A stretch of DNA of 64,000 nucleotides from Marinomonas pontica (GTDB lineage Bacteria > Pseudomonadota > Gammaproteobacteria > Pseudomonadales > Marinomonadaceae), in NCBI RefSeq assembly GCF_026191375.1, contig NZ_JAODTL010000029.1, forward strand, positions 1 to 64,000, written 5' to 3'. This document shows, in pieces, positions 10,607-60,085 of this stretch. How positions within the stretch are numbered: position 1 is the stretch's first letter; each line of letters starts with the position of its first letter. A program made the translations under genes and the position numbers. The notes beneath the pieces are model-generated. The model was not told the origin of the DNA and did not search any database. It saw only the letters and a list, made by a program, of their open reading frames with translations.

Positions 10607-11896
10607 CTACGCCTGATTTTGCTCTAAATGCATTTCAGACTGATTACCCGCATCAGGGTCATTGTAGACACGTTCATCTAACTGGCCTTCGCTCTTAGCA
10701 ACCACGGTAGACACCATTGCATCGCCAGACACGTTAACCGCCGTTCGGATCATGTCTAACAAGCGATCCACACCCAGAATCAAACCAATACCTTCGATTG
10801 GCAAACCCACTTGTGAGAACACCATCGACAGCATGATCAAACCAACACCGGGCACGCCTGCCGTACCAATCGATGCCAATACAGACATCAATATCACGGT
10901 TAGGTAGCCCATCATGCCAAGTTCTACGTTGTAGATATTGGCAATAAAGACCGTCGCCACACCTTGCATGATGGCGGTGCCATCCATGTTGATGGTCGCA
11001 CCAAACGGCACAGTAAAAGACGCCACTGAGTTTTTCACGCCCAGACGTTTTGTTACCGCGCGCAAGGTCACAGGAATCGTCGCATTGGAGCTGGATGTAC
11101 TAAAAGCAAACACTTGTGTGTTGCGCATTTTCTTCATGAAGGTGACAGGGCTCAAGCCGGACAAAACCTTCAAAATCACCTGCAAGGTGACAAATAAATG
11201 GAAGAGCAAGACGCCAATCAACACCAATACATAACCCAACAGCTGAGCCAGTAAATCCATTCCCAAATCCGCAATGGCTCGGGCAATAAGACAAAACACA
11301 GCGTATGGCGCCACTTCCATAATGATGGTGACCATCTTCATCATGATGTCGTTTAAGGTTTCAATGAAATCGCTCACCACAGTGGCTTTTTTACCCACCA
11401 TTAAGATGCTCACACCAAACATGATCGAGAAAAAGATCACCGGCAACATGTCACCTTGCGCCATGGCACTGATCGGGTTGGAAGGAATAATATTGATCAG
11501 AACGGTCGACAGTGGTGGAGAATCTTTCCCTGCAAAATTCGCAGAGGATTCAGCATTCATTCCTTCGCCGATGCCAAAACCAGTCGCAATCACCAGCGCC
11601 GTAGCAATCGCCAATGCCGTCGTAACGAGATACAAGACAAAGGACTTAGAACCTATTCTGCCCAGTAACTTAATGTCACCAATCCCACACACACCGCACA
11701 CCAGCGAGAAAAAGACCAGAGGCACGACCAACATCTTCAGTGCATTCACAAACATGCTGCCAACGACTTTAAACAAGCCATCCGTTAAGTAACTGTTTGC
11801 CCACGAACCTTCAGCGTTCAGCCCAGTAAGATTGAGGATCAGCCCGGCAATAATACCCAGCCCCATCCCAAGTAATACTTTAAACGTTGTATTCAT
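10607..11896 (-). CDS. Dicarboxylate/amino acid:cation symporter (DAACS family)
   Basis: A 429-residue inner-membrane symporter of the GltP/DctA family, importing glutamate, aspartate or C4-dicarboxylates with sodium or protons. Family motifs are present: the serine-rich re-entrant loop STSSSNATIPVT (around 270) and the substrate/cation site ATINMDGTAIMQG (around 303-315). Eight main hydrophobic helices are visible. The exact substrate cannot be set from sequence. It stands alone with its own upstream region. Confidence 0.92.
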   Translation of the reverse strand: MNTTFKVLLGMGLGIIAGLILNLTGLNAEGSWANSYLTDGLFKVVGSMFVNALKMLVVPLVFFSLVCGVCGIGDIKLLGRIGSKSFVLYLVTTALAIATALVIATGFGIGEGMNAESSANFAGKDSPPLSTVLINIIPSNPISAMAQGDMLPVIFFSIMFGVSILMVGKKATVVSDFIETLNDIMMKMVTIIMEVAPYAVFCLIARAIADLGMDLLAQLLGYVLVLIGVLLFHLFVTLQVILKVLSGLSPVTFMKKMRNTQVFAFSTSSSNATIPVTLRAVTKRLGVKNSVASFTVPFGATINMDGTAIMQGVATVFIANIYNVELGMMGYLTVILMSVLASIGTAGVPGVGLIMLSMVFSQVGLPIEGIGLILGVDRLLDMIRTAVNVSGDAMVSTVVAKSEGQLDERVYNDPDAGNQSEMHLEQNQA

Positions 11897-12166
11897 AATA
11901 CTCTCTCATTCCATTTATTATCATCGTTGAAGCAGGCAAATCATCACCGCTCGAAAATCAAAATCACGCATATTGCACGCTACGACTGCGCATCACAACC
12001 ACTTTTTTGCTTAGATGGACAAGCCGACGCTACGTTAAAGCATAGATAAAAACACAAAAGCAGGGGGATTTTGTTCCGGTAGAGAGTGAAATCATGCGCC
12101 GTCTTTTAGATAGAGCAATAGGAAACTGATACAGAATAAGAGAGATGAAATAAGCGTAAAGTCAGG

Positions 12167-46931: not shown

Positions 46932-47738
46932 ATGAAAATCATCTCTTTTGACGCCCTAAGAACCTTGCATTTGCCGCAAGTTCGCTACATCAAACCCGAA
47001 TCGATGTACGACCATTTGGATGAAATAAAAGACGCCGATTGGCTGCTTTTTCCTCAATATTGGCAACTCAACGCCTTGGTTCACGGGCTGAAAAAGCGAA
47101 TTTTTCCTAGTCTGGCCACCTACATGATTGGGCACGATAAAGTGGAAATGACACGGACGTTTCGTACCGTCGCACCCGCACAACATCCCTACACGATTAT
47201 CGCAGCCAACACGCCCTACGAAGCCGAGAAAATCTGGGACGACATGCCTTCTCCTTTCGTGGCAAAGATTCCACGCAGCAGCATGGGCAACGGCGTATTT
47301 TTGATCGAAACCATTGGTCAATGGCGCGACTACGTGGCGCAAACAGACGTTCTGTATGCGCAAGAATACCTGCCCATTGACCGAGACATGCGCGTCATCT
47401 GGGTTGGTAATAAAATCGTTAACGGTTACTGGCGTTTGCAGTCAGACAACGGCTTTCACAACAACATCAGCCAAGGTGGGCAGGTGGAAGCGGCCTTGAT
47501 TCCAAAAGAAGCGCAAGATCTTGTCACCTATTTGGCCGAATCGTTAGACATCAACCACGCAGGTTTCGACATTGCCATGGTCGGTTCAGTGCCATATGTG
47601 ATTGAAATCAATCGTATCTTTGGCAACCAAGGATTGCCTACCATACAAAATGACGTCAACACGGAACTGTTGAACTACCTCAATGAGCAGCATTTGCTGT
47701 CAGTGGCTAACTTGATCGATCAACCTAGCGGTTTTTAG
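46932..47738 (+). CDS. RimK-like ATP-grasp ligase
   Basis: A 268-residue ATP-grasp enzyme expected to join a carboxylate to an amine or similar nucleophile using ATP. Recognisable parts are VAKIPRSSMGNGVFLIE (nucleotide-binding lysine and loop), YAQEYLPIDRDMRVIWVG and the metal-binding VIEINRIFGNQG. The N-terminal domain is short. Substrates are unknown. It lies about 1 kb from the GAK-type operon but on the opposite strand, so a link is only suggested. Confidence 0.82.
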   Translation: MKIISFDALRTLHLPQVRYIKPESMYDHLDEIKDADWLLFPQYWQLNALVHGLKKRIFPSLATYMIGHDKVEMTRTFRTVAPAQHPYTIIAANTPYEAEKIWDDMPSPFVAKIPRSSMGNGVFLIETIGQWRDYVAQTDVLYAQEYLPIDRDMRVIWVGNKIVNGYWRLQSDNGFHNNISQGGQVEAALIPKEAQDLVTYLAESLDINHAGFDIAMVGSVPYVIEINRIFGNQGLPTIQNDVNTELLNYLNEQHLLSVANLIDQPSGF

Positions 47739-48639: not shown

Positions 48640-48909
48640 TCACGACGAAATAGTGGGAGCGGTTTTATTGAGGCGCTTAGGGCGTTTTTCCCAGCGTACT
48701 TTGACTTCAAATTGCTGGCTGTCTTCGTCTTCTGACGCGCTGACTTTCAAGCGCATCAGGCCCTTTGGGTCGAGCGTCAACGCACCGTCTTTGTCTTCGC
48801 TGAACTCCAATTTGCCTTTGGATAAGCCTTTGGAAAGCGCTTTTAATACGCCTTGAATATCATCAGCATCCAGTAACGCTTCGTATTTGAACTCGGTTTT
48901 TGATTTCAT
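48640..48909 (-). CDS. amphi-Trp domain protein
   Basis: An 89-residue single-domain protein matching the amphi-Trp family: a helical first half (DADDIQGVLKALSKGLSKGKLEF) and amphipathic strands with FEVKVRWEKRPK at the end. The domain is a recognised marker of the GAK gene set (ATP-grasp, amphi-Trp, HprK-like kinase). It starts 5 bases after the metallophosphoesterase gene and is the last gene of that tight operon. It could be a substrate or carrier for the enzymes encoded upstream; that is a guess. Confidence 0.87.
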   Translation of the reverse strand: MKSKTEFKYEALLDADDIQGVLKALSKGLSKGKLEFSEDKDGALTLDPKGLMRLKVSASEDEDSQQFEVKVRWEKRPKRLNKTAPTISS

Positions 48910-48914
48910 AAATG

Positions 48915-50239
48915 TTATCCGTAAATTCCTTGTAGATCCTGAGCCGTAATGACTTTTGCGGTTGGGTAGTCACAACTTAACCCAACAATACCGGCGTCTT
49001 TCCCTATTAAAGTCGCACCTATGCCAAAGCCGCTTAAACCTTCGGCTTTGCGAGAATGCGCGTCTAGCGTGATGTCCGCTTCCACGTGCACCAAGCCTTT
49101 TTTGATGGTGATTCGCTGACCTTGCTGACGGTTGATATGGCCTTGAACCACCACATGAATGCCCGCTTTATGAATCGCTTCGACGCCACGTTTGGTCAGT
49201 GGCAGGTCGGCATCGCGGTATTTGGTTCGAAAGGTGTTGGCAATCGAACTGTAGTAAAAGCTGAATAAGTCACGACGCTTGAGGTTACGGTGAAAGGCCT
49301 TGTTCGCGTATTTGGTGCCGCTTTTTAGTAGCATTTGCCCCATGCTGTCATCCAATCCCGCGTGCAAAAACAAGAACGAGCCACGTTTCGCGACCAGCTC
49401 CATTTTGCGGAAAAACCAATTGAACTCGCCTTTTTTATGTAGGAACAAAGCTTGGCATTTCAACGAGGTAGCGTACACCTTGCGCAGGCTCAATCCCGCA
49501 GCCAAGCAATGCTTTTCAAAGCTGTGGTTCTTCGATTCCATTTTGCGCACTTCGCGATCGATGCCTTCCGCCGTCAAAAAGCCAGCCGCATGAAAAGGAA
49601 ACTCTTTAAACCATTCGTCGCCAGGAAAAAGCAATTCTCGACAGGTATCTTCATCAGGGATTTTTTTGTCCCAATGCGTGTCTGCCAAATATTCGTCGAA
49701 TACTTCGCGAAACAATGGCACGACTTTTTTGCCCATGCGCACAAAAAAGTGCTGATTGCCGACGTCTTTTTTCGCGCCAACGCTAACAAGCCCATGAGCA
49801 AACGCAAATCGTGGTTGCCCGCCAGCAGCGTCACTCGCGCTTTCAGCTTATAAAGCTGTTTTACACTGCGCAGTAATTCGAGGTTGCTTGGCCCTTTGTC
49901 CAAACAATCCCCACCGACGATGATCTCCGACTGTTTGCCTTTTTTCGTCAACGTCAATTGACCCAAGCCCGCTTTTTTCTTGCGCTCTGCCACACCCGCC
50001 GCGATCAATGACGCTTCAAATGCATGAGCGTCCGCGTGCGGATCGGAAATAAACACCACCGAACGCTTTGGCCAACGCAAATTTTTCTTCCGAAACAACG
50101 AAGGCGTTTTATTGGGCTCCAATACATGGCTGTTGACCGAGCTGTCGTCCCGTGGCCAAGACGTCCACTCTTTTGGTAGACGCGCAATAATATCCGTATG
50201 GTGAGGTCGATCAGAGATAGCAGGGATTGGGCTTTGCAT
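48915..50239 (-). CDS. Metallophosphoesterase (calcineurin-like), frameshifted
   Basis: A 441-residue phosphoesterase with the five metal-binding blocks: ISDPHAD, GGDCLDKG, GNHD, LHAG and QGH. It would remove a phosphate placed by a kinase. The frame breaks in the A6 run at 49743-49748; adding one base (T on the coding strand) gives AISTFFVRMGKKVVPLF and restores the whole protein. The ATG at 50239 follows AAAGG and is preferred to one 30 bases upstream. It sits between the HprK-like kinase (48 bases) and the amphi-Trp gene (5 bases). Confidence 0.88.
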
Positions 50240-50287
50240 TGTGTTTACCTTTTTTATTAAAAGAGCCATTAATCAGGCACGTGACAT

Positions 50288-51373
50288 TCAGTCCAGCGCA
50301 GCGATTAATTCATAAGCGTAATCAAAATCGATTTTGCCTTTCAATCGATACACCGCTACTTGGCTAAGCTCAGAGGCATAGTGCGACACCGACCTAATCG
50401 CATTCAAATCAATAAACGCACCGTCTTTGCCTTGAAAAAAAGGCCCAGGACGCTTACGCAAGCCTTCAATGGCATCGGGTTCGGAGGACAAATCAACCGC
50501 TTCAATCTGAGTGGGTTCGTCACTGTTCAATGACCAATCCAGCATAATCAGACGCTCTAAATTACCCGCCAAATCCACGCGACCAGCACCGTAATCGTCT
50601 TCGATTTGCACATCGTACTTTTCTTCTATTGACCACAATTCAGCTTGCGTCATTTGCGCCAACGCTTGCTGGCGAGATTCGGGCAAAATGTGACGCAAAC
50701 GATCCGAATGCAACAAAGTACCTGGGTTTACTCTTGGCAGTTTTGCTAACCCCATGGCCTTTGTGCCTTGCTCCGTTTTCTTCAGCAGGATTCGGTCGTT
50801 GGTCAGAAAGTGGCGCGCTGGGTTTTCAAGACAACGCAGCATCAGCGTCGATTTCCCCCCACCAGAGCCCGCCGCAATGGCCGTCACCGCACCATTAACA
50901 CTGAACGCAGACGCATGCCCTAAGGTAAAGTCATGACGCAAATACAAATTTAAAAACTGGTTGTTAATAAAATTAATAATTTGCGCCAAATTCGCCGCAC
51001 AGGGACCAATCGCCAATAACTTTTGTGGACGCTGTAAAAACGCCATACCGGTTTTGAACTTCTTAATCCAACGACCGCCAGCCACATCAATGTAGCCTTC
51101 TTTTCGACCTTGCTTGCCTTCTTCTCTTGGCACGGCGAGCCAGTCCAGCTCTTCGCCTGCGGCCTCTTGCTCGATGACATACAAATCCAGCGCCACTGTC
51201 GCTTGCGCTTCAATGCTTGTGTAGCTGCGATAATAATCCGCCAGTGCGGCCAGCAACATCGGCTCATTGGCGTGTACCGTGACGGCCAAATCCGCAAACA
51301 CCAAACGTATTGTGTCGGTGCAATGTTTTGTCCCTTCATCCACGTGGGCCATGTTCAATAATGTTTTAATCAT
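50288..51373 (-). CDS. HprK-related kinase B (GAK system)
   Basis: A 361-residue relative of HPr kinase/phosphorylase, with a P-loop GSGGGKST at residues 169-176 preceded by the capping strands FTLGHASAFSVNGAVTAIAA. It matches the class annotated as HprK-related kinase B. There is no HPr gene nearby, so the target is probably another operon product. The ATG at 51373 overlaps the ATP-grasp stop (ATGA) and has a near-perfect AGGAGGT ribosome site, which decides the start over one 60 bases upstream. Confidence 0.88.
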   Translation of the reverse strand: MIKTLLNMAHVDEGTKHCTDTIRLVFADLAVTVHANEPMLLAALADYYRSYTSIEAQATVALDLYVIEQEAAGEELDWLAVPREEGKQGRKEGYIDVAGGRWIKKFKTGMAFLQRPQKLLAIGPCAANLAQIINFINNQFLNLYLRHDFTLGHASAFSVNGAVTAIAAGSGGGKSTLMLRCLENPARHFLTNDRILLKKTEQGTKAMGLAKLPRVNPGTLLHSDRLRHILPESRQQALAQMTQAELWSIEEKYDVQIEDDYGAGRVDLAGNLERLIMLDWSLNSDEPTQIEAVDLSSEPDAIEGLRKRPGPFFQGKDGAFIDLNAIRSVSHYASELSQVAVYRLKGKIDFDYAYELIAALD

Positions 51374-52266
51374 GATTTCGTTACCTCCTGTAAAACATGT
51401 TCTGCGTAGACCCGTGCCGCGTCTATGTTGCACCCTTCAAGTGCGCCTTTAAAGCCACCAAACGCCGACACTTCGAACACCACCGGACCTTGATCCGTTA
51501 GGGCAATGTCCACCGTGGTGAAGCTAAGGTCGTAGCACGCTTGCGCTTTGCGACCCAGCTCAATCAGCCTAACATCAGGCTCGAATAATTCGTATTTCCC
51601 GCCACTGTTAATGGTGGTATTCCAAGAGTCCTTATTGCCCACACGAGCATAAGTACAAAGATACTCGCCACCCACAAAGACCATGCCCAAATCACGACCA
51701 TCCAGTTTCACCGTTTGCTGGATGTAGTAAATGGACTGATTCTGACGATATTCTTCTAAGGCGTTGCGCACAAATTCATCGCTGTCGTCGTCCGTCAACA
51801 TGATCATGCCGCGCGCTTTAGTGGAATACAGCGGTTTTAAAATCGCTGAGCCGAACTCTCGCACTGTTTCAAACGCTTGAGCAGGACTTTCAGTAATGCG
51901 GGTTTTCGGCATAGGAATATTACCCTGCTGCAGCGCCAGCGTGCCGCTCAAGCGGTTCACCAAGTTACCCACGCTGTCAGTCGGGCTGAATACTTTTACC
52001 CCCGCACGTTCGGCGTGAGACAACAAATGAATCCGATCTTCTGTCGCTGGAGAATACACCTCACTGATTTTTTTGATGATCAAGCCATCCAGCGTCATCA
52101 AATCCAGCCCTTGATACATCAGCTCATTGGTGTCTAAACGCAATTCCACTTGATTCATATCGATCACGGCGCGAAATCCAGTTTGCTCTTCAAGGCGATC
52201 AGCCAACACTTCAGTCGACCATTTTCCGGGGATGCCAATGACCCCGATTTTCGGCTTATTCAACAT
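51370..52266 (-). CDS. GAK-system ATP-grasp enzyme
   Basis: A 298-residue ATP-grasp ligase with an N-terminal preATP domain (KIGVIGIPGKWSTEVLADRLEEQTG), ATP-binding ILKPLYSTKARGM, YIQQTVKLDGRDLGMVFVGG and metal site FEVSAFGGFKGA. It belongs to the ATP-grasp group that accompanies HprK-related kinase B. It overlaps the upstream gene by 11 bases and the kinase gene by 4, so the three are translated together. The product is unknown. Confidence 0.87.
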   Translation of the reverse strand: MLNKPKIGVIGIPGKWSTEVLADRLEEQTGFRAVIDMNQVELRLDTNELMYQGLDLMTLDGLIIKKISEVYSPATEDRIHLLSHAERAGVKVFSPTDSVGNLVNRLSGTLALQQGNIPMPKTRITESPAQAFETVREFGSAILKPLYSTKARGMIMLTDDDSDEFVRNALEEYRQNQSIYYIQQTVKLDGRDLGMVFVGGEYLCTYARVGNKDSWNTTINSGGKYELFEPDVRLIELGRKAQACYDLSFTTVDIALTDQGPVVFEVSAFGGFKGALEGCNIDAARVYAEHVLQEVTKS

Positions 52267-53929
52267 AGAGATCCTTCAATGGTAAGGTAAATTTTTGGGC
52301 TTGTTCGGGCGATAACTTCGCCAAGCGCTCAAGCAAATAGCGAGCGCGTAAATGCATGCGAGAAGCCAGTTTTTTATCGAAGATAAAACGCGTAGAGGTC
52401 GCGAAAGATCGCGCCAGCCCCGCCGCCAGCCTGACTTCAAAGGTCGTATCCTGCTGGCGTGCCGCAAAGCGCCTAGCAAAGCGATAAACGGCTTTCACGC
52501 TGTCCATCATCTGGGTTCGCGCTTCGCCGCTTAGCACCTGCAAGCGATAGATAGAAACCATCAACACCGAAACATCTTGAACGTAATCAAAATACGCCGA
52601 GCGGTGTAAATCGATAAAGTAGACACGTTTTTCCGTGTCGTCGTAAATGAGGTTGTCGACGTTAAAATCGCCGTGTGTCAGCACGGAAAAAGGCGCACGC
52701 CATTGTGCTTCTTTTTCCGCCACACACTCCACCAGCTCATCAAAACCTTGGCTGACGTAACAACCGATGCGCTCTTCGTCTTTAAAAAAATCGGGGTGCA
52801 CTTTGCGGCTGTCACCAATGCGTTTTTGCAACTGCACCATAAAATTCGCAGCGCAGGATTCCGCTGTTAATGTGGTTTTCCACGTTTGGTTCAGCGTTTT
52901 GAATAAGGTTTTTAGCGCGGCTTGGGTACCGTCTTGATCCCCCGCCAACAACAAGGCTTCTAATGTGTTTCCGGGAATGTGTTCAATGAGTAACGACGAC
53001 GATTCGCTGTTGTCTTTGTGTTTTCCGCCGTCGGTTCGAGACGTTCCAGTTTGAGAAAGCACGCTAGGGGCTAATCTTGGATCGATATTGCGCCACTGAT
53101 TCACACCCGCGACTTCTTCTTCGATCTTGGAGCGATCCCCTTCCTTGTACACCGCCAACACCTCTTTGCCCGATTCGTCTTTATGGGTGATCGCCGCAAT
53201 CGCGCTACCAGAACGAGTCAACGCCAAACGTCGAACTTTCAAGTCTCGCAGGTCATAATTCAAATTGGTTGCGCTGTCTAACAAATGTGGATAATTCTGC
53301 AAAGTGGCGATCTGGCCAAGATCCGCTTTAATCAAGGCTTCTGCGACCACACCCAACTGCTCGACCAAGCGTTTTACACTGACGTTACTGACAATCGCAG
53401 CGCGCAGTTGGTCATCGCTTAAATCTGCCTTAGCTTGCACGGTGAGCGCTTGCAGCTCGTTATAACTGGCGAGCAATTTATGAGTCCGACGACCTAACTT
53501 GATGCCAGTACGGCGACGATTATCGCTCACACCAACGCGCACCAAACGCAACGCACGCCGAATGCGCTTTACCAACTTACTGCATTCTGGGCCGGTTGGG
53601 TGCTCATAAGACGACGCTAACGTGCCTTCTCGAACACAATCAAAACAATGCTGAGTTAACCGCTCTAGCGCGATCACCAACGCGTGCATTCCCGACACCT
53701 GCGCATGGAACGTTGTATGCGCTTTACGACGCTCTAGCAACCGCGCCGTTTCAATATCGGCCTTCTCACGCAACGCCTGTACATAACCTCGGCGGCTGCG
53801 AATACTCGATAAAATAGAAGTAGAACCAGACGTAAAAAATCGCTCAACAAGATGACAGTGTGTTTCCACTTCATTCAAGAGAAACGACACATGCTCTTGA
53901 AGCGAAGACACCACTGGGGGTGAATACAT
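52256..53929 (-). CDS. Helical (PhoU-like) domain fused to APH-type kinase
   Basis: A 557-residue protein with a helical N-terminal region (about 1-210) that looks like two PhoU-type bundles (ALERLTQHCFDCVREG; VKRLVEQLGVVAEALIKADLGQ), and a C-terminal aminoglycoside-phosphotransferase fold. Kinase residues are Lys262 (AVYKEGD), the catalytic loop HGDFNVDN at 419-426 and metal-binding Asp440 (YFIDLHRS). It would phosphorylate a small molecule or sugar. As the first gene of the Pho-box operon, the PhoU-like reading would fit phosphate control. The PhoU likeness is my judgement; the kinase fold is clear. Confidence 0.8.
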   Translation of the reverse strand: MYSPPVVSSLQEHVSFLLNEVETHCHLVERFFTSGSTSILSSIRSRRGYVQALREKADIETARLLERRKAHTTFHAQVSGMHALVIALERLTQHCFDCVREGTLASSYEHPTGPECSKLVKRIRRALRLVRVGVSDNRRRTGIKLGRRTHKLLASYNELQALTVQAKADLSDDQLRAAIVSNVSVKRLVEQLGVVAEALIKADLGQIATLQNYPHLLDSATNLNYDLRDLKVRRLALTRSGSAIAAITHKDESGKEVLAVYKEGDRSKIEEEVAGVNQWRNIDPRLAPSVLSQTGTSRTDGGKHKDNSESSSLLIEHIPGNTLEALLLAGDQDGTQAALKTLFKTLNQTWKTTLTAESCAANFMVQLQKRIGDSRKVHPDFFKDEERIGCYVSQGFDELVECVAEKEAQWRAPFSVLTHGDFNVDNLIYDDTEKRVYFIDLHRSAYFDYVQDVSVLMVSIYRLQVLSGEARTQMMDSVKAVYRFARRFAARQQDTTFEVRLAAGLARSFATSTRFIFDKKLASRMHLRARYLLERLAKLSPEQAQKFTLPLKDLYVE

Positions 53930-53983
53930 AACATTTTCCCTAAAAGTTTATGAGCAACTATACAGACAGTAGAAAGCATCTAG

Positions 53984-54001
53984 ATGACAGTTATGTGACA
54001 A
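53984..54001 (-). promoter_or_regulatory. Pho box before the GAK-type operon
   Basis: On the minus strand TTGTCAC-ATAA-CTGTCAT matches the PhoB consensus of two CTGTCAT heptamers with an AT-rich 4-base spacer in 12 of 14 heptamer positions, with one mismatch (the last base) being accepted at the second repeat. It lies about 55 bases before the start codon of the helical/kinase gene. Possible -10 hexamers downstream are TACTGT and TATAGT. It predicts induction by phosphate starvation. Confidence 0.72.
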
Positions 54002-55582: not shown

Positions 55583-56353
55583 TCAGAGTATGTGTTGTAA
55601 AAACTCTCTAGTCCTATCCCACTGGGGATTCACCAACACCTGCTCTGGCGGCCCAACTTCGATGATTTCACCGTCGGCCATGAACACCACCCGATCAGCC
55701 ACTTGTCGAGCAAACTGCATTTCATGAGTGACACACACCATGGTCATGCCGGTTTTGGCGAGATCGATCATCACGTCCAAGACTTCCTTCACCATTTCGG
55801 GATCGAGTGCGGACGTCGGCTCATCGAACAACATGATTTTGGGCTCCATGGCGAGAGATCGAGAAATCGCCACACGCTGCTGCTGACCACCAGATAATTG
55901 CCCTGGATAACGTGTCGCAAGATGGGCAATCCCGACGCGATCCAGCAAACGCATCGCCATTTTGTCGGCGTCACGTTCTGACATCTTGCGCAGCCAAGTC
56001 AAACCCAAGGTACAGTTCTGCAAAACAGTCAGATGAGGAAACAAGTTAAAGTTCTGAAACACCATGCCCATGGTTTGGTGAATAATTTTATGGCTTTGAC
56101 GATCCCGAGAAAGCGGCTGTCCAAACACAGAAACTACGCCTTCTTGGTACTCTTCTAAATGATTCAGAGAACGAATCAGCGTCGATTTACCTGAGCCAGA
56201 CGGTCCACAAACCACCATGATTTCGCCTTCACTAATGTCTAGAGAAACGTCTTTCAGAACGTGATGATCTCCGTACCACTTGTTCAGGTTGTCGATTTTA
56301 ATCGCCGTTTCAGTCACGGCTTTTTGAGCTAAATTTCCTGATGACGTCGTCAT
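55583..56353 (-). CDS. aapP: Amino-acid ABC transporter ATPase (AapP/GlnQ type)
   Basis: A 256-residue ATPase energising the Aap-type importer. Walker [11 protein letters not shown]-loop [11 protein letters not shown], signature [16 protein letters not shown] and Walker [15 protein letters not shown] are intact, as is the switch histidine in VTHEMQFA. Its ATG overlaps the aapM stop by one base. Confidence 0.95.
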
Positions 56354-57712
56354 TAGCGATCCACCTTTAAACGTTTTTCAAGATTCAAACTGTATTGGGA
56401 CATGCTGTAGCACAAGATAAAGAAGAGCACGGAAATCATTACCAAAGGCTCGGTGTGCATTCCCACCCAGTCTTTATCGTTAGCAATGTTGCGCGCCATC
56501 AACATGATGTCGAACAAGCCAATGATGGAAACCAAGGTGGTGTCTTTCAGCAAACTGATAAACGACGTCATGATATTTGGAATCATCATTCTTAACGCCT
56601 GTGGCAAAATAATCAGCACCATTGTGTGCAGATAACCTAAGCCAAGCGTAGCCGCGGCTTCGTACTGACCTTTTGGAATCGCCTGCAAACCACCACGAAT
56701 GTTTTCAGCCATGTAAGCACCAGCAAATAAACACACCGCGACCAATACTTGCGTGAGCTTGTTAAACTCCATATCCGCCGGCAAAAAGATAGGCAGTAAG
56801 GTCACCGCCATAAACAAGACGGTGATCAAAGGTACAGAACGAACTAGCTCGATCACTGTCATCGACAACCAATGAATCACTGGCAATTTAGAACGTCGAC
56901 CCAACGCTAAAATCACACCAACAGGAATCGCCATGGTGATGGCAAAACCAGCAATAATGAAGGTTAGGAACAAACCGCCCCAACGCTCAATAGGCACTGG
57001 CTCAAGTGATACTTGGCTAAGGCCAAGAGCGATCACCAATGCAACAAGCAGCCAAACAGCAACAAAGCTAAACAGATGGATACGACGCTCAACCAAGCGA
57101 GACACCAGCGGCACAAAGAGTTCGTTTAGGCCTTTTTTACCCAGCGCCGACAAGATCCAATTAGCGTAAAGGATGACCAAAAATGCCAAGGCCAAACACG
57201 TCATCGCGCCATGTACCAAGCCTAATTCCTCGCCAAAACGGCCGCCTAAGAAAAGATAACCGCCCACAAAAGGATACAAGCCAATCCAAGACAGCAAGAC
57301 AAAGTTGCGTAATGGAATAAGCTTCGACATCAGCGGTAATAACCAAACCAATCCGAGCAAGACGCCGATATTGAGCGCGCCATTGTTCATCTATTGGAAA
57401 GCGCCCGTAAATTAAACCATTGAACCAGCTAATAACACCGGCCCAACAGGCGCCGTCTGGGCTGATATCCATACATTGACGACGATTGTCTGCGATGAAA
57501 ACCGCATTAAACACCGCCCAATCCAACACATGTTTCACTAGATAAAACAGCATAGTTGCCACACACAAGGTCAGCAAGCTATTACCAATACTGTTAAAGC
57601 AACGATGACGAATTGTACCTAGAATGCCTCTTTCGCTTTTACGTGGCGGACGAGGTGGCGTCGGGACAAATTGCTTTAATGCAGGTTGATTTTTCACATT
57701 CAAATCGTCCAT
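56353..57712 (-). CDS. aapM: Amino-acid ABC transporter permease (AapM type), frameshifted
   Basis: One of two permeases of a general L-amino-acid importer. The C-terminal half has the EAA-type loop [24 protein letters not shown] and several membrane helices; the N-terminal 110 residues are the long AapM-type leader. Near 57375-57380 the frame shifts by +1: removing one base in the GCGCGC stretch gives [15 protein letters not shown] and a 452-residue protein. Start adjoins the aapQ stop without a gap. Confidence 0.85.
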
Positions 57713-58949
57713 TTATCGCACCTTATACTGCACGCTGTCGTTGTACTTGTTGAGCAAGTAAGAGATCAGCAAACTGATGAAGATATAGAACCCCATGACC
57801 ATAAAGATGATCTCGATGGCGCGTCCGGTTTGGTTCATGGAAGTTTGCATGAACACAGACACCAATTCAGGGAAACCAATTGCCACAGCAAGTGACGAAT
57901 CTTTTGTCGCCGCCAACCAAGAGTTGGTCATTGGCGGAATAATGGAGCGAATCGCCTGAGGAATCAGAATCAAGCGCAACGATTGAACACGTGAGAAACC
58001 AATGGTAAACGCCGCCTCGTGCTGCCCCTCGGTCGATAGACTGCATGCCAGCTCGAACCGTTTCCGCAATTGCCGCAGATCGATACACTGTCATGGCAAC
58101 AAACGCCGCACCGAATGACGCAGGGAAGAAACGCACCGCCGCTGAAGTTAAAGCCTTGTAGTGTTGGAACAGACAAGCTCGTCGAATTAGAAAAACTCCA
58201 AATAACCCAACAAGCAGCCAACGCCCACACAACTAAGCCGATATAGAATCCGGTGGAGCGAGAGCCTGACACGGTGTAATAAGGTTTAGACCAACGGAAC
58301 AAAGCGTAAAGCGCCGCGATTAAGGCAAGTCCAATGGCAATAATCCATCCCCATGACAAGCTGGTATCCATCGTTGTCACATACAAGCCACGGTTATTCA
58401 GGAAAAGCCATTCGCCAAGATGATAGCTTTGACGAGGCGCAGAGCAAGGTCGAAAACACCACGGTAAACCAAAAGATAAATTTGGATTAATAAAGGCACA
58501 TTACGCACGACTTCAACGTACCAGCGCGCTAGTTGAGAAACCAAAGGGTTATCGGATAATCTTAAAATCCCCACCACTGTACCAATGAGAGTGCCGACAA
58601 CAATCACGCAGAAAGACAAAATCAGCGTGTTCACAATACCGACTAAAAATACACGCCAGTAAGTCATACCAGCGTCGTAAGGAATCAAGCTCCAGCTAAT
58701 ATTAAAGCCAGCGGTCACTTGCAGAAAATCGAAGCCAAACGTCATGCCTAGACGGTTTAAATTTTCACTGGCATTGGCGAATAAAAACCACAAGCCGAAC
58801 AAAACCAGCATCAAGACAATGGCTTGCAAGATCACCGCTCTGCTTGAATCATTATTAAGCAAAGACAGCCATTTTTGTGTCGTAGACGAAGGCAAACCAG
58901 CACCCTTAGTCGGGCGTTTTTGTGGCTTGCTCGTAGAGGACTGAATCAT
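57713..58949 (-). pseudogene. aapQ: Amino-acid ABC transporter permease (AapQ type), four frame breaks
   Basis: Parts of one permease appear in different frames in the right order: FDFLQVTAGFNISWSLIPYD through VVRNVPLLIQIY, then FWFTVVFSTL, SAPRQSYHLGEWLFLNNRGL, a membrane part ending FNFSGG, RFFPASFGAAFVAMTVYRSA with AETVRAGMQSIDRG, and QHEAAFTIGFSRVQSLRLIL to the end. The joins lie near 58475, 58445, 58134 and the C4 run 58025-58028, each needing removal of one base. Repaired length is 410 residues, normal for AapQ. Four same-direction breaks in one conserved gene suggest a poor-quality stretch of assembly rather than stepwise decay. Confidence 0.82.
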
Positions 58950-58986
58950 ATCTATATACCGAACGAAGGAGGAAAACCAAAGTTGC

Positions 58987-59014
58987 AATAGATAGGCCAA
59001 GCGACCTATCTATT
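58987..59014. repeat. Hairpin between aapJ and aapQ
   Basis: AATAGATAGG and CCTATCTATT form a perfect 10-bp stem with an 8-base loop (58987-58996 and 59005-59014). Such intergenic stems after a binding-protein gene commonly stabilise its mRNA or trim read-through to the permeases. Confidence 0.6.
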
Positions 59015-59054
59015 CGCATAGACAGCACTGTGTTATGAGCGCAGTAATCGTGTA

Positions 59055-60085
59055 TTAACGGAAAGACTTCGCGTACATCAAACCGCCATTCGTCCACAAC
59101 GCGTTCAATGTGCCTTCACGATCTAAACCCAAAACACTATCAGTTCCTACGTTACGTTCGTACACTTCACCGTAATTACCAACGTTTTTAATAACTTGAA
59201 ATGCCCAGTCCTGAGGAAGTCCTAGACCTGTATTCAGATCACCTTCAACACCAAGTAAGCGGCGAACCACAGGGCTTTTGCTTTCGTCACGCATTTTCTC
59301 GACGTTTTGTGAATTCACGCCAAACTCTTCCGCTGCAACCATGGCAGCAAAAGTCCATTTCACAACATTCGCCCATTCGCTGTCGTTTTGTTTTACAGCA
59401 AACGATAAGGCTTCTTTGGAAATAGTTTCAGGCAAAATAACGTAATCATTTGGATTCGGTGCTGCAGAACGTTGCGCAGCTAAACCCGATTTGTCATTGG
59501 TTAATGCGTCACAATTGTTGTTAAAAAAGCAGTGTTACGGACGGAAGAGTCGTCAAATACGACGGTTTTTATATCTAAATTATTCGCACGGCTGTAATCC
59601 GCGATGTTCAATTCGCTAGAAGTTCCGGTCAATACACATACCGTTGCGCCATTTAGCTCTTTTACAGATTTCACGCCCAAATCTTTACGCACCATGAAAC
59701 CTTGGCCGTCATAAAAATACGTATCAAGAAAATCTAAGCCCTGTGCTGAATCACGGGAAAGCGTCCACGTCATGCCTTTTGATAAAATGTCACCTTTACC
59801 ACTCTTAATAGAAGTGAAGCTTTGTGCCCACTGTACCGGCAGGAATTTCACTTTAGAGGCATCACCAAACACCGCGGAAGCCACGCCACGACACATATCA
59901 ATGTCCATGCCCTGCCATTCGCCAGCCTTGTTTAAGCTGTAAAAACCGGGGAAAGAGTTACCAATTACACAGTTTACATAGCCACGCTCTTTGACTGCAT
60001 CTAGGGTAGACGTGGTGTCTGCTGCGTAACTGTTTGCCGCTAGAAGCGTAGTGGTTGCCGCTAACGCCATAGAAAATTTCTTCAT
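59055..60085 (-). CDS. aapJ: General L-amino-acid ABC binding protein (AapJ type), frameshifted
   Basis: Periplasmic binding protein of 343 residues, capturing L-amino acids for the AapQMP importer. Signal peptide MKKFSMALAATTTLLAANSYA; family motifs CVIGNSFPGFYSLNKAGEWQGMD (split over 39-61), LSRDSAQGLDF and the disulfide-like NNNCDALTND. The frame breaks in the A6 run at 59523-59528; adding one base (T on the coding strand) gives NTAFFNNNCDALTNDKSGL and joins both halves exactly. Confidence 0.9.

Follow-up and report, generated by a model that had tools for sequence, protein, structure and literature searches.

The GAK system is already known as an NCBI annotation, carried by the family models TIGR04354 (amphi-Trp protein), TIGR04355 (HprK-related kinase B, here HprK-B), TIGR04356 (GAK ATP-grasp) and TIGR04357 (GAK CofD-like protein). 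Here we analyze a GAK operon located in the first 64,000 nucleotides of contig NZ_JAODTL010000029.1 of Marinomonas pontica (the window, G000:C29:1-64000, where G000 stands for this genome, a draft of 3.55 Mb in 62 contigs). In the open-access PMC literature searched, we found no mention of the GAK system, of the amphi-Trp or HprK-related names or of TIGR04354-TIGR04357, and no paper that brings most of the gene set together.

Individual parts of the operon resemble enzymes with described substrates. RimK modifies ribosomal protein S6 and HprK modifies HPr, and the acceptor of the LysX/ArgX ligases is the small carrier LysW, which is loaded at its C-terminal Glu. RimK/LysX ligases carry E-x-N as a metal-binding motif. 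The kinase of eukaryotic PPIP5K has the ATP-grasp fold and is accompanied by a histidine phosphatase. The joining of a kinase and a phosphatase domain in PPIP5K is described in PMC11836120. As to regulation, PhoB boxes stand before pst, phoA and phoH in the Pho regulon, and PMC4415409 describes the PhoB box as two 11-base direct repeats. We tentatively propose, giving it somewhat less than an even chance, that the Marinomonas GAK operon may belong to the Pho regulon and that its predicted enzymes may make and unmake a phosphorylated soluble compound.

A Pho-box-like repeat upstream of the operon

The sequence TTGTCACATAACTGTCATC is found upstream of the first start codon of the operon, its first TGTCA beginning 71 bases before that codon. 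It contains the only perfect TGTCA-N6-TGTCA in the window, where 0.14 are expected and at least one was seen in 13 of 100 shuffles. When scored with a matrix derived from the 56 E. coli PhoB chromatin immunoprecipitation sequencing (ChIP-seq) sites given in PMC10294691, the repeat reached 21.1 bits, as compared to 22.2 for E. coli pstS and 19.4 for phoA. It is the best of approximately 128,000 positions in the window, the next one scoring 16.5, and none of 60 simulated windows reached its score. Weaker Pho-like sites at 28.1-28.4 kb (16.3-16.5 bits) were set aside; by eye they lie between response-regulator and NhaC-like genes, which are not known phosphate genes.

The repeat recurs within the genus. 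In 34 unique Marinomonas upstream regions, considered from -90 to -25, 12 displayed a 10/10 core (0.003 expected from shuffles), 19 a core of at least 9 (0.10 expected) and 26 a core of at least 8/10 (1.2 expected), these counts being inflated, since the sequences are related and not independent. When 360 bases on either strand were considered, 27 of 35 Marinomonas rows had a best site at or over 14.2, the median for E. coli. The likeness to the Pho regulon lies in a sequence and a score that fit E. coli PhoB sites, and in the position of the box, which in many Marinomonas loci precedes the start codon by approximately 70-75 bases; the difference is that the operon products are predicted transferases and phosphatases, and not uptake or scavenging proteins.

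Perfect repeats were also located near phosphate genes elsewhere in this genome. One precedes by 43 bases a pstC-like gene, which is cut by the fetched stretch and scores 30.8 bits with TIGR02138, under the cut-off of that model; another stands 140 bases before the gene for a PhoX alkaline phosphatase (432.6 bits), and a further one before a PAP2 phosphatase gene. The pstC site scores 21.1 bits with the matrix, as does the GAK site, and the PhoX site is weaker (13.0). Another strong Pho-box-like site of this genome (18.2 bits) has a dual-specificity-phosphatase-like gene (L125, 1714-2364) downstream of it.

Outside Marinomonas, locus L086 has a clear box on the minus strand (19.4 bits, 157 bp), and L089 has a weak one (12.5 bits). 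Two loci of other groups that carry no box have phosphate genes nearby: in planctomycete L102, PstS (294.8 bits) and PhoU (203.3 bits) are encoded approximately 4-6 kb past the GAK genes, and in L084 a Na/Pi cotransporter with a PhoU domain is encoded approximately 1 kb from the kinase gene. Farther past PstS and PhoU, L102 holds ExbB, ExbD, TonB and response-regulator genes. A TonB gene is present within the fetched stretch of both planctomycete loci, L102/L142 and L103, and in L142 the ExbB and ExbD genes are followed by TonB and later by a response regulator.

Conserved core of the GAK set

Three proteins of the operon scored above the NCBIfam cut-offs of their GAK families, namely the ATP-grasp protein (TIGR04356, 451.8 bits versus a cut-off of 300), HprK-B (TIGR04355, 281 versus 200) and the amphi-Trp protein (TIGR04354, 61.4 versus 31), which bears out the assignment made in the original prediction. 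Its account of five genes running in one direction, with overlaps of 11 and 4 bases and gaps of 48 and 5 bases, was likewise confirmed, in minus-strand coordinates (Table 1). The operon differs from the annotated system in that TIGR04357 is not found in it; in addition, among the model names, compared as names only, there is none for a PhoU-APH kinase, a phosphoesterase, a histidine phosphatase or a SixA-Nudix protein. None of eight proteins matched PADLOC anti-phage defence models at E 0.01, and a defence system was rejected as the identity of the operon. The profile TIGR04358, for an XXXCH protein that we take to be linked to GAK, had no match in this genome, but also none in any control genome. 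A second RimK-like ATP-grasp gene lies near the operon (46932-47738, plus strand; 64.9 bits, below the TIGR00768 cut-off), and such a gene is also found near GAK in several Marinomonas loci.

The same five-gene order was observed in all 17 other Marinomonas loci compared. Among the 13 loci from other Pseudomonadota (L079-L091), eight hold all six genes, a histidine phosphatase being added, in the same order, and the other five are cut by a contig end, rearranged or incomplete. Since the gene order recurs, the arrangement is not due to chance. L087 carries all six genes, with amphi-Trp approximately 4 kb away, and contig ends truncate L088 and L091. In planctomycetes, L048 and L103 hold all six genes together with a CofD-like gene and a second amphi-Trp gene, in a different order.

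Of 398 Pseudomonadota genomes, 14 have HprK-B over cut-off, three being Marinomonas, and a further two, G080 and G229, have strong fragments of it; in the phylum to which planctomycete L048 belongs, it was found in 3 of 392 genomes (at E 1e-20). The phosphoesterase profile matched 15 of the 398 Pseudomonadota genomes, and all 15 are among the 16 with strong HprK-B, G080 being the one without it. Finding these genes only rarely together would have spoken against the set, and this is not what the neighbourhoods display. The PhoU-APH kinase and the phosphoesterase had been presented as two further enzymes added to GAK; as judged from these sequence comparisons, they are instead core parts of the set, from Pseudomonadota to Planctomycetota.

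In many loci a histidine phosphatase gene stands between those for HprK-B and the phosphoesterase (PF00300, 60 bits; RHG and a second His-Gly are invariant). Of 48 Marinomonas genomes, 36 score over the ATP-grasp cut-off; 24 of these 36, and no others, have the histidine phosphatase. It has no match anywhere in the G000 genome. Its absence from 12 of the 37 loci placed on a tree takes four changes to explain, at least two of which are forced by well-supported branches. The earlier description of the gene set was thus incomplete, having missed the histidine phosphatase of the relatives and the likely phosphate control.

A SixA-Nudix fusion occurs in 7 of the 13 non-Marinomonas Pseudomonadota loci and in none of the Marinomonas loci. 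The Nudix domain of one such protein was tested, and its nearest PDB entry is human DIPP (E 2e-8), followed by Ndx1 and Ap4A hydrolases. Stand-alone Nudix genes lie directly upstream of the PhoU-APH gene in L079 (12776-13246) and L084 (12963-13451), and an ApaH gene, for a symmetrical Ap4A hydrolase, adjoins the GAK locus at opposite ends in L080 (5718-6539) and L085 (9729-10607), the same being seen by eye in L081.

Of 48 Marinomonas genomes, 47 have the CofD-like family TIGR04357 above cut-off, among them some that have no GAK ATP-grasp; the family lies within only four fetched loci (L048, L084, L089 and L103). It was consequently rejected as an operon partner in Marinomonas, being present without the GAK ATP-grasp and in none of the fetched Marinomonas GAK loci, and is treated here as optional for the system. 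In planctomycete L048 the CofD-like gene is adjoined by an inositol-monophosphatase-family gene (11179-12003, 155.7 bits), and in the four CofD-like loci viewed besides that of the present genome it lies, by eye, near a response-regulator gene.

The predicted kinases and ligase

The product of the first gene matched Pfam APH (35.6 bits) and EcKL (36.1 bits). The profile of its family matches the PhoU homologue 4q25 (E 4e-12) and APH(3') (E 3e-7), and the relative in L048 has a Pfam PhoU match of 87.9 bits, so that the PhoU-APH fusion proposed initially is borne out. The motifs HGDFN.DN and F.DL.R are invariant in 23 kinase sequences. In Marinomonas genome G023, the PhoU-APH gene is in two overlapping frames (L114, 10464-12133).

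The PDB relatives of the ATP-grasp protein are LysX, ArgX and RimK, with LysX/ArgX-type ligases among the nearest in a single-sequence search, and it shares with them its family and most of its length. The stretch FEVSAFGG is invariant in 23 of 23 sequences, at a place where E-V-N or E-L-N stands in the three PDB relatives aligned with them; an invariant Ser thus replaces the Asn of their E-x-N. A further difference from LysX/ArgX is that the small partner of the GAK enzyme, amphi-Trp, does not carry a LysW-like conserved tail.

The AlphaFold2 (AF2) model of HprK-B (pLDDT 92.6) matched phosphoenolpyruvate (PEP) carboxykinase (PEPCK; 1j3b, E 5e-8) and HPr kinase/phosphorylase (approximately 2e-6) in Foldseek. 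Its P-loop reads SGGGKST in 21 of 22 sequences and SGMGKST in one (alignment A6). No PDB sequence match was found at E 0.01, and Pfam Hpr_kinase_C matched neither HprK-B nor, at E 0.001, anything in the whole genome. Because the match is one of fold by Foldseek, in the absence of a PDB sequence match, we call HprK-B a predicted HprK/PEPCK-fold enzyme, a name that does not imply that it is an HPr kinase; it resembles HPr kinase/phosphorylase and PEP carboxykinase in predicted fold and P-loop, and differs from them in the two sequence searches.

The amphi-Trp protein

Phe7 and Trp73 are the sole invariant residues of 28 amphi-Trp sequences, not one Ser, Thr, Tyr or His position is 90% conserved, and the C-terminus varies in both sequence and length; a LysW-type conserved C-terminal acceptor residue was not found. 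The AF2 model consists of one helix and four strands (pLDDT 84.5); Foldseek gave no PDB fold match for it at E 0.001, and by sequence no PDB entry scored better than E 0.05. The protein is encoded in 21 of the 398 Pseudomonadota genomes, of which 13 are among the 16 HprK-B genomes and eight have no HprK-B over cut-off. By eye, no neighbour is common to all of these eight. Neither fold nor context points to a function for amphi-Trp. The suggestion that amphi-Trp is a possible modification target is not backed by its conservation, as it has no such conserved Ser, Thr, Tyr or His and a variable C-terminus, nor by its occurrence without HprK-B over cut-off in 8 of 21 genomes. Among the loci of these eight genomes (L134-L141), L137 resembles L139 and L140 resembles L141, and in L137 and L139 amphi-Trp follows tsaD-like and gpsA-like genes by eye.

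A phosphoesterase gene split in the assembly

Calcineurin-type phosphoesterases carry the motifs D.H, GD, GNHD, H and GH.H. These are invariant in the 21 sequences of alignment A4, with Asn replacing the last His, and in the window they are divided between two frames that change over at a run of A (Table 1). The type originally predicted was correct; the gene is not intact in this assembly. The N-terminal piece matches Metallophos PF00149 (29.9 bits). The C-terminal piece alone has no family match, and it is 94% identical to L031 and scores 508.7 bits against the A4 profile. The best matches of the phosphoesterase are weak and are to ApaH, the similarity spanning only about 55 residues.

In each of the 54 other fetched loci where the gene was found, it reads as a single open frame (a count with duplicates, since two genome collections were used and some genomes are present twice; in L088 it runs off the contig). 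For the computable pairs, the ratio of nonsynonymous to synonymous substitution rates (dN/dS) of both halves against seven intact relatives was 0.01-0.06, like that of intact control pairs, and on these ratios both halves are still under purifying selection. Three further genes of the window, within 11 kb of the phosphoesterase (56.4-57.7, 57.7-59.0 and 59.1-59.7 kb), align with their Marinomonas relatives only over two or three frames, with the support of 8, 7 and 3 query proteins, respectively, and one query that fits the 56.4-57.7 kb place in one frame. Twenty places in the window match Marinomonas relatives in one frame, and a place at 47.8 kb gives a split match with one query and an unbroken one with three. 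The three split genes (56353-59680, minus strand) thus suggest frameshift errors in the assembly; by eye, two of them resemble ABC permeases. The CofD-like gene of this genome is also in three pieces, each below cut-off (G000:C32:109471-110560; L145), and is whole in the 47 other Marinomonas genomes. Given the single frame in other loci, the persisting selection and the additional split genes, sequencing error is the likely cause. Read as A_AAA_AAG, the run of A is a dnaX-like slippery motif; programmed frameshifting was rejected, all 54 other loci with the gene reading one open frame.

Table 1. Features of the GAK operon and its upstream region (window coordinates)
Feature	Position	Strand	Basis
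PhoB-box-like direct repeat TGTCACATAACTGTCATC	53983..54000	-	matrix score 21.1 bits
-10-like TATAGT	53957..53962	-	visible in many rows of the 34-region Marinomonas alignment
PhoU-like helical domain and APH/EcKL-type kinase fusion, 557 aa	52256..53929	-	APH and EcKL matches; family profile; invariant motifs
GAK ATP-grasp, RimK/LysX-like, 298 aa	51370..52266	-	TIGR04356; PDB relatives
HprK-related kinase B, predicted HprK/PEPCK fold, 361 aa	50288..51373	-	TIGR04355; AF2; Foldseek
48-base gap, place of histidine phosphatase in many relatives	50240..50287	-	
Calcineurin-type phosphoesterase, N-terminal piece	49574..50239	-	PF00149; conserved D.H, GGD and GNHD motifs
A-run, site of phosphoesterase frame change	49767..49772	-	
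Phosphoesterase, C-terminal piece (HAG, GH.N motifs)	48915..49742	-	L031 identity; A4 profile match
Amphi-Trp protein, 89 aa	48640..48909	-	TIGR04354; AF2

Discussion

If the operon does belong to the Pho regulon, scarce phosphate would lead PhoB to bind the upstream box (54000-53983) and to switch on a cytoplasmic enzyme set. The PhoU-domain kinase and the HprK/PEPCK-fold kinase would add phosphate, the RimK/LysX-like ATP-grasp enzyme would activate a carboxylate and join it to an acceptor, and phosphates would be removed by the calcineurin-type phosphoesterase, often together with the histidine phosphatase and, in some genomes, with the SixA-Nudix protein. The amphi-Trp protein, apparently non-catalytic, may bind the compound or hold the enzymes together, and the PhoU domain could tie the kinase to phosphate status. 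We infer a soluble substrate because amphi-Trp has no conserved acceptor residue and because of the DIPP/ApnA-like and ApaH-like relatives. What the sequences display is the gene set and its conservation, catalytic motifs kept intact across the family, the Pho-box-like repeat, and phosphate genes close to two loci of other groups; PhoB activation, the direction of each reaction and the role of amphi-Trp are inferences.

A number of observations weigh against this reading. Eight of the 35 Marinomonas rows score below the E. coli median, and TATAGT sits 27 bases past the second TGTCA, the corresponding spacing after the box being shorter in E. coli phoA. Across the genome, the perfect repeat occurs 11 times and the reversed control pattern 5 times; several of the 11 are close to genes, putA among them, that have no evident role in phosphate use. 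In 11 of the 13 non-Marinomonas loci scored, nothing rose above shuffling. The window kinase taken alone has no Pfam PhoU match, only its kinase part being matched. As to the gene set, L082 (G187) has no amphi-Trp in the locus, which is cut on one side, or in the genome, which is 87% complete; L090 (G080), cut inside HprK-B, has no APH gene beside the ATP-grasp gene, and no phosphoesterase is found in its genome; planctomycete L102 has neither phosphoesterase nor histidine phosphatase within the 19.9 kb fetched. The amphi-Trp genomes without HprK-B point in the same direction.

Reversible protein modification, in which the kinases and the RimK-like ligase would modify amphi-Trp or another protein and the phosphatases would reverse this, draws on the distant relationship of the ATP-grasp protein and HprK-B to RimK and HprK and on the presence of kinases and phosphatases in one operon. 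It is rather unlikely, however, since the best family matches are ApaH-type for the phosphoesterase and APH/EcKL for the kinase, and not protein phosphatases or protein kinases, and since the conservation and distribution of amphi-Trp described above do not suit a modified substrate. A pathway with amphi-Trp as a LysW-like carrier, onto which the ATP-grasp enzyme would load a substrate that the kinases then act on to give a small molecule, would agree with the LysX/ArgX-type relatives of the ligase and with the small size of amphi-Trp; the unconserved C-terminus of the latter and the invariant E-V-S in place of E-x-N make it quite improbable. Considering the PhoU-module kinases, the matched phosphatases and the Pho-box-like promoter together, a phosphate-responsive pathway thus fits better than the modification of amphi-Trp.

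Decay of the operon in this strain, with loss of the histidine phosphatase and a phosphoesterase turned pseudogene, would account for the missing match and the two frames, and the four tree changes, at least two of them forced, are in line with gene loss; yet the low dN/dS of both halves, the other split genes, including CofD-like, and the open frames of the remaining genes in other lineages without the histidine phosphatase render decay very unlikely. The compound itself could be a polyphosphorylated messenger, be it a dinucleoside polyphosphate, polyphosphate or an inositol-pyrophosphate-like molecule. The SixA-Nudix proteins, with the one tested being nearest to DIPP, Ndx1 and Ap4A hydrolases, the weak ApaH matches of the phosphoesterase and the ApaH genes beside L080 and L085 point this way; the absence of SixA-Nudix from Marinomonas loci, the short ApaH similarity and a ligase-like ATP-grasp sequence point the other, and we regard such a messenger as improbable. 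PF07994, which we take to be inositol-phosphate synthase, matched 0 of 48 Marinomonas genomes and 5 of 14 control genomes. De novo inositol synthesis thus appears unlikely in Marinomonas, and inositol pyrophosphates are weakened as a candidate substrate.

At its most speculative, GAK would be a bacterial phosphate-starvation messenger system. A polyphosphorylated compound would be built by the two kinases, one of them with its PhoU domain, and the ATP-grasp enzyme, degraded by phosphatases of the histidine, calcineurin and DIPP-like Nudix types, and read by amphi-Trp; we consider this a long shot. Taken across GAK loci, the list of catalytic folds is similar to that of the eukaryotic inositol-pyrophosphate enzymes (PPIP5K, DIPP Nudix), but the GAK sequences do not belong to those families, the Nudix resemblance excepted, and PF07994 is without a match in Marinomonas. 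If real, the GAK messenger system would be the functional equivalent of inositol-pyrophosphate signalling in eukaryotes, built on a scaffold different from de novo inositol.

Judged on the open-access literature, the phosphate link and the extended core appear to be new. The genes to be explained jointly now include the PhoU-APH kinase, the phosphoesterase and the histidine phosphatase beside the three named GAK parts, and amphi-Trp becomes less likely as the modified target. With the Pho-box-like repeat, the PhoU domain and the phosphate-transport genes near two loci of other groups, the family may thus gain a physiological context and a testable role.

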